From contig JAHFEJ010000011.1 of NCBI GenBank assembly GCA_023248535.1, forward strand, positions 15,868 through 53,863: 37,996 bases of DNA, in the 5' to 3' direction. This stretch comes from Nitrospinales bacterium (GTDB lineage Bacteria > Nitrospinota_A > UBA7883 > JACRGQ01). Positions 4,263-30,113 of the stretch are shown piece by piece. A model generated the notes under the pieces. That model was given only the letters and a program-made list of their open reading frames with translations, was not told the DNA's origin and did not search any database. Numbering within the stretch: the stretch's first letter is position 1; the number at the start of each line of letters is the position of its first letter. A program made the position numbers and the translations under genes.

Positions 4263-5644
4263 CCCACCTGGTCGAGGCGGCGGAGGCGGAATTTTACCCG
4301 GAGCGTTTCTTCGGCCAGCCGCCGCACGGCCTCCATATCCACCCCTTCCACCGGGCCGACGGCGCTGACAACCGTTTCGGGCAGCAGGTCGCGGCAGCGT
4401 TCCGCAAAGGCAAGCAGCGCGGGGAACGCGTGTTGTTTGTCGTTTGGATGGCAGATGCGGTTGTATGTTTCCCGGTCCGGCGCGTTGAGTGATATGGAAA
4501 CGGTATCCACAAGCCCCGCCAGCTCCGGCACGATGTCGCGTTTGTTAAGCAGGCTCCCCTGCCCGTTGGTGTTAAGCCGGACTTTGAGGCCGCGTTTTTT
4601 CATCTCCACCGCGACCTCTTTGATCACCTCCAGCCGCATGGTCGGCTCGCCAAAGCCGCAGAGCACCACTTCATCGGGGCGTTGCGCGCCAATGGCGGCG
4701 ATGATCTCGGCGGCGGAGGGGTCTCTGCTGGTGCCGAGGTAATGCCCTTGCACGGTGGGGTTGTCGAGCCGGGGGCAGAAATCGCACATATTGCTGCAAT
4801 CGCGCGTGACGTTTACGTAAAGGGAATTGCGGATTTGATAAACGATTTCGGCCCGCGCGGGTTTTGCACCGAGGAAGAGTTTTTGAAAGTTGTTCAGGGT
4901 AAGGCGCGCGAGGTCTTCCAGCGTCACGCCGCGCACTGCGGCGAGAACTTTGGCGGTTTCAACGAGGTAGCCGGGGTCGTTCCGTTTGCCGCGAACCGGC
5001 TGCGGCGCAAGGTACGGGCAGTCGGTTTCTATCAGCAGTTTTTCGGCCGGTACCACTTTTGCCGCATCCCGCAGGTTTTGCGCTTTGGGGTAGGTGACGT
5101 TCCCTGCGAAGGAGACGTACATCCCCAGTTTCACGGCTTCTTCGGCCTCGCGCGGCCCTTCCGAGAAGCAGTGCATCACGCCGCCGCTGATGGGATCGAT
5201 TTCTTCTTTGAGAATGGGGAGGATGTCGGCGAAGGCGTCGCGGCAGTGGATGATGACCGGTTTTTTCGCCTCGCGCGCGATTTTCAGATGGCGGCGGAGC
5301 GCGGCCTTCTGGTCATCCGCTTCTGCGCGGTGGCGGAAATAATCAAGCCCGGTCTCGCCGATGGCGACTATCCGCTCGTGCCGGGCCAGGGCGGCGACTG
5401 TTTCGTAATCGGCTTCGGTTATTTTAGAAACCTCGTTCGGGTGCACCCCGGCGGCGGCATACATGTTGGAATACCGTTCCGCCAGCGCCACCGCGCCGCG
5501 GGCGGAGGGGATGTCGTAGGCCACATTGAGGATGAGGTGCTCTTTCAAGCGCGCCGCCACTTCGTGGACATCGGCGGCGAAATCGGGATTGTTGAGGTGG
5601 GCGTGCGAATCGGCGAAGCGGGGAACGCGAACGGAGCTTTCCAT
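4259..5644 (-). CDS. TatD-family metal hydrolase fused to radical SAM domain
   Basis: A two-domain protein of 461 residues. The first ~255 form a TatD-type metallohydrolase: HxH at 14/16, E97 in AIGETGLDYF, H133 in IIHCRDAF, H158 in MHCF and D208 in ETDCPYLAP. All metal ligands are intact. The second part (from ~265) is a compact radical SAM domain with the CxxxCxxC cluster at C283, C287 and C290, then the glycine-rich GFGEPTMR and a later SISLNAPD strand. It matches the known TatD-linked radical SAM family, whose substrate is not established. The ATG at 5644 is preferred over the GTG at 5653 because GGGGAAG lies at proper spacing before the ATG. The gene sits between purA and lpxB in the operon. 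TatD members are 3'-5' exonucleases or D-aminoacyl-tRNA-type hydrolases, so a nucleic acid role is only an inference. Confidence 0.9.
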   Translation of the reverse strand: MESSVRVPRFADSHAHLNNPDFAADVHEVAARLKEHLILNVAYDIPSARGAVALAERYSNMYAAAGVHPNEVSKITEADYETVAALARHERIVAIGETGLDYFRHRAEADDQKAALRRHLKIAREAKKPVIIHCRDAFADILPILKEEIDPISGGVMHCFSEGPREAEEAVKLGMYVSFAGNVTYPKAQNLRDAAKVVPAEKLLIETDCPYLAPQPVRGKRNDPGYLVETAKVLAAVRGVTLEDLARLTLNNFQKLFLGAKPARAEIVYQIRNSLYVNVTRDCSNMCDFCPRLDNPTVQGHYLGTSRDPSAAEIIAAIGAQRPDEVVLCGFGEPTMRLEVIKEVAVEMKKRGLKVRLNTNGQGSLLNKRDIVPELAGLVDTVSISLNAPDRETYNRICHPNDKQHAFPALLAFAERCRDLLPETVVSAVGPVEGVDMEAVRRLAEETLRVKFRLRRLDQVG

Positions 5645-26041: not shown

Positions 26042-27589
26042 ATGTTCCCCATCCTTACCACTGTGATCCTCATCCCGCTGATTGGCGCCGCGATCCTTCT
26101 CTTGGTGCCGAAAAAGAGCGAGAACCTTATCCGCGCTATCACCTTGCTGACGGCGATCATTGATTTCGCCGCGTCGTTACCGCTTTTTTTCGATTTTGAG
26201 GAAGGTACCGCCGCCATGCAGTTCGCCGAGCGGGTGCCGTGGATACCTTCATGGGGCGCCGAATATTCGTTGGGGCTGGATGGCATTTCGCTTTTCATGG
26301 TGTTGCTGACAACCTTTACCTGCGTCGTTGTCTACCTGGCGACCTGGACGGCGGTTGACAAGCACGTCAAAGAGTTCAACATCGCCCTGCTGGTGCTCCA
26401 GACGGGAATGGTGGGCGTTTTTTGCGCGCTCGATTTTGTGCTCTTCTATGTTTTTTGGGAGCTGATGCTGATCCCGATGTATCTGCTCATTGGCATATGG
26501 GGGGGGAAGAACAGGATTTACGCCACGGTCAAATTTTTCATTTATACAATGGGCGGCTCGGTGTTGATGCTTTTCGCGATACTGGTTCTTTACTTCCAGT
26601 ACCACTCCCAGACCGGAGTTTATACATTCGACATTCTTAAATACCACTCGTTCGCGATCAGCGAGACCCTCCAGTATTCGCTGTTCCTCTGTTTCTTCAT
26701 AGCGTTCGCGATAAAGGTGCCGGTCTGGCCGTTCCACACGTGGTTGCCGGACGCCCACGTCGAAGCGCCCACCGCCGGTTCCGTGATACTCGCCGGCATC
26801 CTGCTGAAGATGGGCACATACGGTTTCCTCCGGTTTTCACTGCCCATATTCCCCGATGCCTCCCTTTCCGCCGCTTGGTGGGTAAGCTGGCTTGCCATCA
26901 TAGGAATAATTGTTGGCGCCCTCATGGCGCTGGCGCAGACCGACATTAAAAAGCTGGTGGCGTATTCCTCCGTAAGCCACTTGGGATTCGTCGTGCTGGG
27001 CACGTTCGCATTCACGGCGCGGGGCATTTCGGGCGGTATTATGCAGATGATCAACCACGGGATATCGACAGGCGCGCTGTTCCTTTTGGTCGGCATATTG
27101 TACGAAAGGCGGCATACGCGCCTGATAGCCGAATATGGCGGCATTTCGAAAGTGATGCCAAAATTCGCCTTCGTATTTATGATCGTTGCGCTTTCCTCTA
27201 TTGGACTTCCGCTTACCAACGGGTTTATAGGCGAGGTGATGATTTTAGTCGGAGTTTTTGAAGCTAACGCATTGTACGCGGCGCTTGCCGTGGCCGGCGT
27301 TTTGCTGGGAACGGCATACATGCTCTGGACGTACCGGCGCGTGATATTCGGCGAGTTGACCAACGAAAAGAACAAGACGTTGCCGGATATGAACGTACGC
27401 GAGGTAATCTACATGACGCCGCTGATCGTAATGATCTTCCTGCTGGGGGTTTATCCCAATCCGGTGATCCGCAAAATGGAAGCCAGCGTGACCAATCTGG
27501 TCGCCACCATGGATAAAGCAAAAGAGGCCCGGCTGGCGCATCCCGCCGCCCTCGCCGCCAACCTTGATGTGGATAAGAAGAGGGACTAA
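26042..27589 (+). CDS. nuoM: NADH-quinone oxidoreductase subunit M
   Basis: A canonical 515-residue antiporter-like subunit. The helix-5 glutamate is in FYVFWELMLIPMYLL, and the helix-7 lysine in AIKVPVWPFHTWLPDAHVEAP. The broken-helix region is AGSVILAGILLKMGTYG, and helix 12 is in LVAYSSVSHLGFVVLG. Both N- and C-termini are of normal form, with a short charged Lys/Ala tail. Codon use returns to the GC-rich style of nuoA-K. The start is two bases after the second MrpD-like stop, behind a G-rich ribosome site, and the stop overlaps nuoN by one base. Confidence 0.96.
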   Translation: MFPILTTVILIPLIGAAILLLVPKKSENLIRAITLLTAIIDFAASLPLFFDFEEGTAAMQFAERVPWIPSWGAEYSLGLDGISLFMVLLTTFTCVVVYLATWTAVDKHVKEFNIALLVLQTGMVGVFCALDFVLFYVFWELMLIPMYLLIGIWGGKNRIYATVKFFIYTMGGSVLMLFAILVLYFQYHSQTGVYTFDILKYHSFAISETLQYSLFLCFFIAFAIKVPVWPFHTWLPDAHVEAPTAGSVILAGILLKMGTYGFLRFSLPIFPDASLSAAWWVSWLAIIGIIVGALMALAQTDIKKLVAYSSVSHLGFVVLGTFAFTARGISGGIMQMINHGISTGALFLLVGILYERRHTRLIAEYGGISKVMPKFAFVFMIVALSSIGLPLTNGFIGEVMILVGVFEANALYAALAVAGVLLGTAYMLWTYRRVIFGELTNEKNKTLPDMNVREVIYMTPLIVMIFLLGVYPNPVIRKMEASVTNLVATMDKAKEARLAHPAALAANLDVDKKRD

Positions 27590-29040
27590 TGGTTATTGTG
27601 CCGCCTTCCATCGACTTGGCCGCCGTAGGGCCGGAATTGATTTTGACCGGCGCGGCTTCGCTGCTGCTGCTTGTCGGCGTGTTCCTGAAAGAACAGAGCC
27701 GGTTCCTCAATCCGTGGATCGCCCTCCTCGGCGTCATTCTGGCCGCCGGTTGCGCTTCCAGTTCGCTGTTCCCGCACACCACCTTTCAGGGGATGTACGC
27801 GGCCGACCTGTTCACCCGCTTCTTCAAGCTGCTGTTCCTGCTCGGCACCGGCATGACCATCCTTATCTCCATCAAATACACCGCCGACGAGCAGATCGAG
27901 CACGCTGAATATTACGCGCTACTGCTGTTCGCCACCATCGGCATGATGCTGATGGCGGCCGCCTCCGACTTGGTCACCGTGTTTCTCGGCATCGAGACGC
28001 TTTCCCTTTCGCTGTACGTCCTCGCGGGCTACACCCGCACGCGGCTCGTCTCGAATGAGGCATCGCTGAAGTACTTCCTGCTGGGCGGCTTCGCCACCGG
28101 CTTCCTGCTGTATGGCATTGCGCTGATTTACGGTTCCACCGGCCACACCAACCTTGCCAAGATAGCCTACGCCGTTTCGCACGGCAACCTGAACACCGGC
28201 CTGCTCACCATCGGCGCGTTGCTGTTGCTGGTGGGGCTTGGTTTCAAGGTGGCGGCGGTGCCGTTCCACCAGTGGACGCCGGACGTGTATCAGGGTGCGC
28301 CCATTCCGGTTACGGCCTTCATGTCCGCCGGACCCAAGGCGGCGGTGCTGGCGGTGATGATCCGCGTGTTCGAGCAGTCGATAGCCTTTATGAATGTGGA
28401 CTGGACCGTCTGGATCACCATTCTGGCGATCCTCACCATGACGGTGGGTAACATCGCCGCGCTGGTGCAGTCCGACGCCAAGCGGATGCTCGCCTTCTCC
28501 TCGATATCCCACGCGGGGTACGCGATGGTCGGCATGGCCGCCGCCAGCCGCGAAGGGTCGAGCGCGGTTCTTTATTACATGCTGGTCTACACGTTCATGA
28601 ATATCGGCGCGTTCGGTATTCTGGCGCTGGTGGCGCGGCAAAACGAACAGCGGACCGCCATGCGCGATTTCACGGGGTTCGCCTACAAAAACCCGGCGCT
28701 GGCGTTTATTATGACCATTCTCGTCTTTTCGCTGGCCGGCATCCCGCCGATGGCCGGCTTCATGGCGAAGTTCTACATCTTCATGTCCGCCATCAAGGCC
28801 GGGCAGAATTTCCTGGTGCTTGCGGCGGTGCTGAACTCCGCCATCGGCATCTACTACTACCTCCGCTTCGCCATCTACATGTACATGAAGGAAGATGAAG
28901 CGCCGAGCACCCTCCCGCCGCTGCGCGCGTCGCTGGGGCTTATCCTGGCGCTGGTGATATCGCTCTACGGCGTCATCCGCCTCGGCGTGCTCCCGGCGGA
29001 ATACCTCGATTTCGCGGGCAAAGCGCTCCTCACTTTCTAA
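27589..29040 (+). CDS. nuoN: NADH-quinone oxidoreductase subunit N
   Basis: A 483-residue antiporter-like subunit closest to the NuoA/J/K group. It has FLGIETLSLSLYVLAGY with the helix-5 glutamate, GLGFKVAAVPFHQWTPDVYQGAP with the helix-7 lysine, and FMSAGPKAAVLAV with the helix-8 lysine. About 14 hydrophobic segments are present. The ATG at 27589 shares a base with the nuoM stop. It is the last gene of the operon, and a strong terminator follows 20 bases after the stop. Confidence 0.96.
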   Translation: MVIVPPSIDLAAVGPELILTGAASLLLLVGVFLKEQSRFLNPWIALLGVILAAGCASSSLFPHTTFQGMYAADLFTRFFKLLFLLGTGMTILISIKYTADEQIEHAEYYALLLFATIGMMLMAAASDLVTVFLGIETLSLSLYVLAGYTRTRLVSNEASLKYFLLGGFATGFLLYGIALIYGSTGHTNLAKIAYAVSHGNLNTGLLTIGALLLLVGLGFKVAAVPFHQWTPDVYQGAPIPVTAFMSAGPKAAVLAVMIRVFEQSIAFMNVDWTVWITILAILTMTVGNIAALVQSDAKRMLAFSSISHAGYAMVGMAAASREGSSAVLYYMLVYTFMNIGAFGILALVARQNEQRTAMRDFTGFAYKNPALAFIMTILVFSLAGIPPMAGFMAKFYIFMSAIKAGQNFLVLAAVLNSAIGIYYYLRFAIYMYMKEDEAPSTLPPLRASLGLILALVISLYGVIRLGVLPAEYLDFAGKALLTF

Positions 29041-29060: not shown

Positions 29061-29088
29061 GGCCGGGCTAAACCCCCGGCCTTTTTTT
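29061..29088 (+). terminator. intrinsic terminator of the complex I operon
   Basis: GGCCGGG (29061-29067) pairs with CCCGGCC (29075-29081) around a seven-base loop and is followed by seven T (29082-29088). It lies 20 bp after the nuoN stop. Confidence 0.9.
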
Positions 29089-29204
29089 GTCATGCCGGGC
29101 TTGACCCTGGAGTGGTGGGATAAATATGCGGCGGCGAAGCCTGCGGAGCCAGCCGCGCACAGTCCGCCACGGAAATACCCTTCAAGGGTGCGGCACCCAG
29201 ACAT
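29089..29204. repeat. second copy of the TGTCAT palindromic repeat, interrupted
   Basis: The left side (TGTCATGCCGGGCTTGACCC, from 29089) is the reverse complement of the right arm of the element at 395-544. The expected continuation, CGGCACCCAGA-ATAT, is found about 80 bases later (29191-29205). The two parts are separated by extra GC-rich sequence that itself holds inverted repeats (GCGGC/GCCGC, and GGGTGC/GCACCC at 29186-29198). It looks like the same repeat family split or extended by an insert. There is no coding evidence. Confidence 0.5.
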
Positions 29205-29225
29205 ATTCTCAAAGCTCTCTTTCTT

Positions 29226-29320
29226 GGTGGGTACCCATTTTAATGGGTACTTCATGCCGCGAGGCATGACCGCTTTCTTGGCGCGTTGCGCCAATGTACC
29301 CAATAAATTGGGTACCCACC
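29226..29320. repeat. 95-bp cloverleaf-like palindromic element
   Basis: It is bounded by a perfect 12-bp inverted repeat (GGTGGGTACCCA at 29226-29237 and its complement at 29309-29320). Inside are four near-contiguous perfect hairpins. Arms GTACCCATT/AATGGGTAC are at 29231-29250. TCATGCC/GGCATGA with loop GCGA is at 29252-29269. TTGGCGC/GCGCCAA with loop GTT is at 29278-29294. GTACCCAAT/ATTGGGTAC is at 29296-29315. Hairpins 1 and 4 are near copies and overlap the outer repeat, so the strand can fold either as four separate stems or as a closed cloverleaf. It contains no gene, terminator or recognised transposon end. Confidence 0.75.
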
Positions 29321-29433
29321 GGAGGCGAAAGCGCTCGGATAATATTTCCGCCGCTCCTTGCTCAAGACCCGCACGGCAAGGGGGAGTATTCCCCCGGCTC
29401 CCGTTCTGCCCTGCTTGTGCCGCTCTTGCGCGC

Positions 29434-29453
29434 TGCTATCGCCCGTGATAGCA
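29434..29453. promoter_or_regulatory. hairpin just ahead of hicA, possible operator
   Basis: A perfect 7-bp inverted repeat (TGCTATC/GATAGCA, loop GCCCGT) ends eight bases before the hicA start. HicB-type antitoxins with ribbon-helix-helix tails bind such palindromes to repress their own operon. Its location suits that role or a translation-limiting hairpin over the hicA start. The role is inferred only from position. A further GGGGGA/TCCCCC hairpin lies at 29380-29395. Confidence 0.4.
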
Positions 29454-29460
29454 TATCTGT

Positions 29461-29712
29461 GTGTCAAAAACACGGAAGCTTTATGAAAAGGCTTTGCACA
29501 GCCCCCAGAACATGCGGTTCGAGGAAATTTGCCGATTGGCGGAATCATTCGGATTTCACCTCAAAGGGGGCAAGGGAAGCCACCGCGTTTTTAGCCGTCC
29601 CGGAACAGATGCGATGCTGAATTTCCAAAATGTCGGCGGCTTTGCAAAACCGTATCAGGTTAAACAGCTTCTCAAGGTTGCCGAAGAATACGATCTGAAA
29701 CTGGAGGAATAA
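29461..29712 (+). CDS. hicA: HicA-type mRNA interferase toxin
   Basis: An 83-residue protein of the HicA double-stranded-RNA-binding fold. The catalytic His is H41 in GGKGSHRVFSRPG, the standard GSH motif. An N-terminal helix (FEEICRLAESFGFHLKGG) and a C-terminal helix (VKQLLKVAEEYDLKLEE) complete the beta-alpha layout. HicA toxins cleave mRNA in the cytoplasm. This one is a little longer at both ends than minimal members. The start is a GTG at 29461 without a clear ribosome site, which may keep expression low. It is followed after one base by the antitoxin gene. All toxin residues look intact. Confidence 0.88.
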   Translation: MSKTRKLYEKALHSPQNMRFEEICRLAESFGFHLKGGKGSHRVFSRPGTDAMLNFQNVGGFAKPYQVKQLLKVAEEYDLKLEE

Positions 29713-29713
29713 T

Positions 29714-30043
29714 ATGCGTTACCCGATCAAGGTGTTTTACAGCGAAGAGGATAAAGGGTATATCGCCACGGTTCCCGACCTGCCCGGCTGTTCCGCTTTT
29801 GGCGAAACGGAAGAGGTGGCGGTGCGGGAAATTAAAACCGCCTCAGCCCTCTGGCTCAGCGCAGCCAAAAAGGAGAAAAGGAAAATCCCCGCCCCTTCCA
29901 AAAGGAGCCGGTTCAGCGGGCGCATCCTCGCGCGGTTGCCGAAGTCGTTGCACGAAGATTTGGCGGAAAGGGCGAAGGATGAAGGGGTAAGCCTTAATCA
30001 GCTGGTGGAATACCTGCTTTCCAAAGGCCTCACCGCGAAATAG
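29714..30043 (+). CDS. hicB: HicB-type antitoxin
   Basis: A 109-residue partner of HicA. The N-terminal ~50 residues are the partly degraded RNase-H-like HicB domain (VFYSEEDKGYIATVPDLPGCSAFGET), which blocks the toxin. A basic linker (KKEKRKIPAPSKRSR) follows. The C-terminal part FSGRILARLPKSLHEDLAERAKDEGVSLNQLVEYLLSKGL is a ribbon-helix-helix DNA-binding domain of Arc/HicB type. It therefore probably represses the pair. AGGA before the ATG gives a better ribosome site than that of hicA, consistent with antitoxin excess. Confidence 0.9.
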   Translation: MRYPIKVFYSEEDKGYIATVPDLPGCSAFGETEEVAVREIKTASALWLSAAKKEKRKIPAPSKRSRFSGRILARLPKSLHEDLAERAKDEGVSLNQLVEYLLSKGLTAK

Positions 30044-30113
30044 AGTAACAGCAATAAATAGAGCCGATGTTCCCTGTTTCCGCCGAAGCAGTTCTTGCAG
30101 GCAAATTTAATGT

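Follow-up and report, generated by a model that had tools for sequence, protein, structure and literature searches.

The 95-bp cloverleaf that lies between nuoN and hicA in the window (the whole 37,996-nucleotide stretch of a Nitrospinales genome that was analysed) is read here, with a probability of about 0.93, as a REPIN, a non-autonomous mobile element of RAYT / TnpAREP, an HUH single-strand tyrosine transposase. It is an inverted doublet of GTRG-tagged REPs with a two-hairpin spacer, and by analogy with related systems it would most likely be mobilised by a RAYT. An earlier, sequence-only reading had listed a mobile element end, a recombination target and a structured RNA as possible roles; the mobile direction was right, but the element appears to be a whole non-autonomous REPIN in many copies rather than one end of something larger.

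The element and its surroundings

The features of the site, in window coordinates, are as follows.

29226-29320, plus strand: whole cloverleaf, read as a REPIN, 95 bp (sequence, covariance-model match)
29226-29230, plus strand: left REP tag GGTGG, with the GTGG tetranucleotide (GGTRG in 32/32 aligned copies)
29231-29250, plus strand: outer arm H1, 20-nt near-palindrome GTACCCATTTTAATGGGTAC (alignment helix 2)
29252-29269, plus strand: inner hairpin H2, TCATGCC..GGCATGA, TTCATGCCgcgaGGCATGA (alignment helix 3)
29278-29294, plus strand: inner hairpin H3, TTGGCGC..GCGCCAA, TTGGCGCgttGCGCCAA (alignment helix 4)
29296-29315, minus strand: outer arm H4, the right-REP palindrome, 20-nt near-palindrome GTACCCAATAAATTGGGTAC (alignment helices 5 and 6)
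29316-29320, minus strand: right REP tag CCACC, which is GGTGG on the minus strand (sequence, alignment)
29088-29219, plus strand: the left-hand half of a CGTC-type (TGTC-tagged, dRS3-like) repeat that brackets the element (sequence, motif scan beside other copies)
29088-30110, no strand: 1.02-kb block of REPIN and hicAB, absent at the orthologous nuoN|ruvA site in two same-genus genomes

All four stems noticed earlier within 29226-29320 are present, flanked by GGTGG and CCACC, with H2 and H3 separated by a short linker. What had been described as a 12-bp closing inverted repeat is actually a 25-nt pair (29226-29250 with 29296-29320, 92% complementary) made of the outer arms and their tags, and it is the sole inverted pair that a repeat search reported around the site. 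As in REPINs, a GT[AG]G tetranucleotide abuts the palindrome foot, and two inverted REPs with their spacer form a unit whose length falls within the range of about 60-120 bp expected of such elements. According to PMC3116915, PMC3733652 and PMC6006769, GTAG-type REPs and REPINs are recognised by a GT[AG]G that abuts a palindrome, in inverted doublets, and both are tied to RAYT/TnpAREP.

The element is preceded by nuoN (27589-29040, Proton_antipo_M) and by a terminator-like hairpin after that gene, seen in the sequence at 29061-29088, and is followed by hicA (29512-29712, HicA_toxin) and hicB (29714-30043, HicB). The left bracketing repeat reads TGTCATGCCGGGCTTGACCC ... GGCACCCAGACATATTCTCAAAGCTCTC and is interrupted by about 82 nt (29108-29189, with GCGGCGGCGAAGCCTGCGGAGCCAGCCGCGCACA), apparently an insertion, like pieces of which are found at other loci. 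Elsewhere in the window, at 395-544, another inverted TGTC-tagged (CGTC/dRS3-like) pair encloses cloverleaf-arm remnants.

Fold stability and covariation

The earlier claim that the fold is beyond chance was borne out, since 29226-29320 as DNA reaches a minimum free energy of -35.5 kcal/mol where shuffles give -12.9 +/- 2.3 (z -9.8; 0/200 shuffles as good), and folding as RNA with flanks (29206-29340) gives z -7.6. The comparison of related copies for covariation, which the same reading had proposed, was made on a MAFFT alignment of 32 copies against shuffled data and gave strong covariation for the cloverleaf: 90.9% of cells are paired (78.8 shuffled), both sides have changed in 115 cells (33.5 shuffled; 0/500), and the covariation score is 0.307 (0.106 shuffled), a signal that is lost once the partners are slid by 1-3 columns. 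H1 is paired in 96.9% of cells, with both sides changed in 7/8 pairs, and H3 is paired in 96.4% across the alignment.

Two alternative folds had been suggested, and both are possible on paper in the window copy, but the family supports the cloverleaf only. The long hairpin that pairs H1 with H4 is rejected as a conserved fold, with a covariation score of 0.107 against 0.095 shuffled and 79.4% of cells paired against 78.3. Energy folding yields separate hairpins in 7/7 other copies folded, and the long stem is preferred by the window copy only, since its outer arms are almost alike in type; a homodimer/heterodimer distinction of this sort is made for REP dimers in PMC3733652. The closing 5-bp GGTGG/CYACC stem is likewise rejected as a true helix, having no covariation of its own, and is better read as a tag because A.C mismatches arise where GGTAG faces CCACC.

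The copy family in the genome

The sequence-only reading had counted a lack of related copies among the things that would speak against it, and copies were found in about 73 distinct places in the element's own genome (G000; covariance-model matches at E<1e-6, hand count from the match list). BLAST with a 151-bp query yielded 95 strand-wise matches there, and a covariance model built from 32 copies gave 134 strand-wise matches, with the window copy (C26:45093-45187, E 5.0e-17) fifth in rank. When parsed as GGTRG + hairpin ... hairpin + CYACC, the copies have the layout GGTRG, 20-nt palindrome, hairpin, hairpin, 20-nt palindrome and CYACC, and mostly measure 91-97 bp. As expected of REPINs, they are numerous and, in the window copy and the handful of others inspected, intergenic.

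The outer arms have many sequences, among them GTACCCAAT, GTACACAAT, GTACACGTT, GTACATGC and GTGCGACA, and further CGCGGACA, GACGGACA, GGGCGAAT and GGTCGACA, and they keep their length and complementarity despite this diversity; hybrid doublets that mix arm types are also present. The inner arms are of a few types only (CATGCC, CGGCCC, TTGGCGC and TTGCCGC), those of H2 being CATGCC and CGGCCC. Two hairpins are held by the 38-56 nt spacers of 36/37 own-genome doublets, a set assembled in part through resemblance to the window copy, against 13% of shuffles, and units beside RAYT genes, chosen without regard to such resemblance, often have a two-hairpin spacer too. The copies themselves were partly picked by a model or parser that embodies the architecture, and the RAYT-flanking units are independent of the model. 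In five copies, the loop of the H4 hairpin contains a similar insert (GATGGCCTATACCGGCGCGGAT...CCTCCCGA), with the stem complementary on either side:

H4-loop insert copies: L010, L017 (about 4800-4980), L026, L040 (about 1640-1710) and L020 (about 2880-2960)

RAYT genes and their flanking repeats

The genome has eight Y1_Tnp matches and six RAYT genes, the latter counted as places that match the protein of the RAYT on contig C125 (G000:C125:61010-61498). Three RAYT proteins, including that of C125, score 80.0, 83.8 and 80.4 against the NCBIfam model NF047646 (REP-associated tyrosine transposase; cut-off 80). In the PDB, the C125 protein matches TnpAREP 4er8 alone (E 1.2e-5), and its score against Pfam Y1_Tnp, 21.5, falls just under the cut-off of 23. 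The HxH, WQ, DR pair and YI motif are conserved in an alignment of 14 RAYTs. D and R stand at the E100/H101 equivalents, which PMC6006769 reports for subclasses 2.5 and 2.7 (its subclass 2.5 of TnpAY1 being RAYT group 3); together with WQ, HxH and the YI motif they liken these RAYTs, which come from a Nitrospinota-like family unnamed in the text of that paper, to 2.5 / 2.7 by motif.

GTRG-tagged hairpins lie at most 200 bp away on both sides of 16/16 family RAYT genes examined, an arrangement found for 1.8% of random placements in the window. As in REPIN systems, the genome has a RAYT gene flanked by the same REP type as the element, and the flanking arm sequences are RAYT-specific:

C125 RAYT: GTACCCA/GTACACA arms on both sides
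C47:696 RAYT: flanking arms GTACAGGC
C91:23986 and C47:39671 RAYTs: arms in common, GTCACACA/GACACGTT
C91:14775 RAYT: flanking arms CACGGACA

The arms of the window copy are of the C125 type, and because of these matching flanks the C125 RAYT is the likely enzyme for this copy. A tandem array of four units, spaced at about 102 bp and with the final unit inverted, adjoins this gene (L018:2752-3151, that is G000:C125:61551-61950). A second, longer Y1 transposase-like ORF, a 235-aa frame without a match to the C125 query, was observed at L050 (G000:C99:9724-9891) near GGTAG hairpins of type GGGCGGGTTTTAAACCCGCCC.

Proposed mechanism

The following scheme is modelled on TnpAREP of E. coli, Stenotrophomonas and Marinomonas (PMC8266576). 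When the DNA is single-stranded, for example on the lagging-strand template, each arm would fold as its own hairpin, and the two inner hairpins would turn the strand into a four-armed cloverleaf. A RAYT would bind the folded single-stranded REP, selecting its site through the GTGG or GTAG foot together with the hairpin, and its tyrosine would nick beside the hairpin; strand transfer to another place would then spread copies through intergenic DNA. Most likely, the inner hairpins allow each REP to remain an arm of its own, and we infer that they space the two REPs in a suitable geometry and work against the formation of a single long hairpin. A stronger version, in which the inner hairpins serve as third and fourth recognition arms and the intermediate must be a four-armed cloverleaf whose arms are all read by the RAYT or a partner, seems doubtful; if it were true, arms would be exchangeable between RAYT families only within a clade-specific four-armed architecture.

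Distribution, empty sites and alternative explanations

The covariance model finds copies in 8/11 genomes of the family and 4/7 genera, namely in G000-G003 of the same genus and in G005, G007, G008 and G010 of the same family, and none in the family genomes G004, G006 and G009 or in 29 other genomes (12 of the class, 17 more distant). In the relatives the four-armed layout recurs with different arm sequences. An exact-pattern search with H3 matched mostly Nitrospinota MAGs, the named ones mainly from groundwater, which points to Nitrospinota as the phylum of the window, and its matches in Nostoc, Clostridia and Betaproteobacteria may be chance palindromes.

Presence and absence vary between relatives, as they do for REPINs, at the three sites compared. 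In G001 and G002, nuoN and ruvA are joined directly, without window positions 29088-30110; the pstA|pstB site is empty in G002 and has other repeats in G003, and the L028 site is empty in G003 and has other sequence in G001 and G002. Because the 1.02-kb block absent at nuoN|ruvA includes hicAB, that event need not involve the REPIN alone. The hicA/hicB toxin-antitoxin pair (29512-30043) thus lies within a block that two sister genomes lack.

The nuoN|ruvA comparison also bears on an alternative, a structured non-coding RNA or mRNA 3'-end element selected for an RNA function as stabiliser or attenuator. The very stable fold and the covariation in 4/4 arms would suit such a role, but G001 and G002 lack the element at the orthologous site, it is located 3' of the terminator-like hairpin of nuoN and has copies in many unrelated places, no curated covariance model of Rfam matched it near threshold, and the GTRG tags and RAYT flanks would be left unexplained. 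This explanation is therefore judged quite improbable, and the structured RNA put forward earlier gained no independent support, although single copies may be co-opted for RNA function. A tRNA or tmRNA was ruled out, none being predicted by ARAGORN.

It is still less probable that a DDE transposase mobilises the element as a MITE whose terminal inverted repeats would be the bracketing TGTCAT...CAAAGCTCTC repeats or GGTGGGTACCC. Inverted TGTCAT...CTCTC repeats do bracket many copies, but the tandem cloverleaf arrays and RAYT-flanking units are without such brackets, the tag and hairpin signature tracks Y1/HUH genes, and no target-site duplication is evident at three inspected sites. Integron integrases use folded single-strand sites of about this size, yet a recombination or integration site that acts in folded single-stranded form (attC-like, phage attachment or recombinase target), a role proposed earlier that likewise found no independent support, is scarcely credible given copies dispersed in intergenic DNA, arm sequences that vary widely and still match those at RAYT genes, and no integrase recognised among the examined neighbour genes of the window copy.

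Comparison with known systems

RAYTs and REPINs are widespread in bacteria, yet the mode of REP spread is unproven, and six RAYTs with their own arms, together with hybrids, arrays and empty sister sites, constitute a natural experiment for RAYT-REP specificity. REPINs and REPtrons are already known, and there are earlier reports of structured spacers. A literature search, made mostly without subscription papers, returned no GTAG-type doublets in which two enclosed hairpins are a constant feature, no REPINs in Nitrospinota and nothing on a RAYT with a cloverleaf.

With the TnpAY1 of subclasses 2.5 / 2.7 (PMC6006769), the system described here shares an HxH preceded by D, the WQ, D/R and YI motifs and perfect canonical REPs with GT[AG]G. 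It resembles the E. coli BIMEs with TnpAREP (PMC8266576; 4er8) in a REP plus inverted REP, tandem copies and a TnpAREP homologue. In contrast, E. coli REPs need a bulge (PMC8266576) and the arms here are near-perfect palindromes, and the tag differs from that of BIMEs, the left one being GTGG in most cases and the right one frequently GTAG. The bracketing repeats share the TGTC tag, AT first stem pairs and CCA tail with CGTC-type REPs / dRS3, as these are defined in PMC3733652, and are distinct from the REPIN that they bracket.

The closest parallels are the REPINs and GTAG-type REP HH dimers associated with RAYT (Bertels and Rainey 2011, PMC3116915; Di Nocera 2013, PMC3733652), which have in common with the present family a GTRG tag at the palindrome foot, an inverted doublet of about 90 bp, homo- and heterodimers, clusters and tandem arrays, while RAYT genes flanked by repeats are shared with REPtrons. 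Unlike in those dimers, the arm sequences here are unusually diverse for one genome. REP dimers are reported to have spacers whose ends complement each other or which have small stem-loops at one end, and two stem-loops are reported for the CGTC-3 dimers of A. tumefaciens; the spacer of the P. fluorescens REPIN pairs into one long hairpin, whereas the spacer here forms two separate conserved hairpins. This conserved two-hairpin spacer is the distinctive feature of the REPIN described here and suggests a role for the spacer beyond that of filler.
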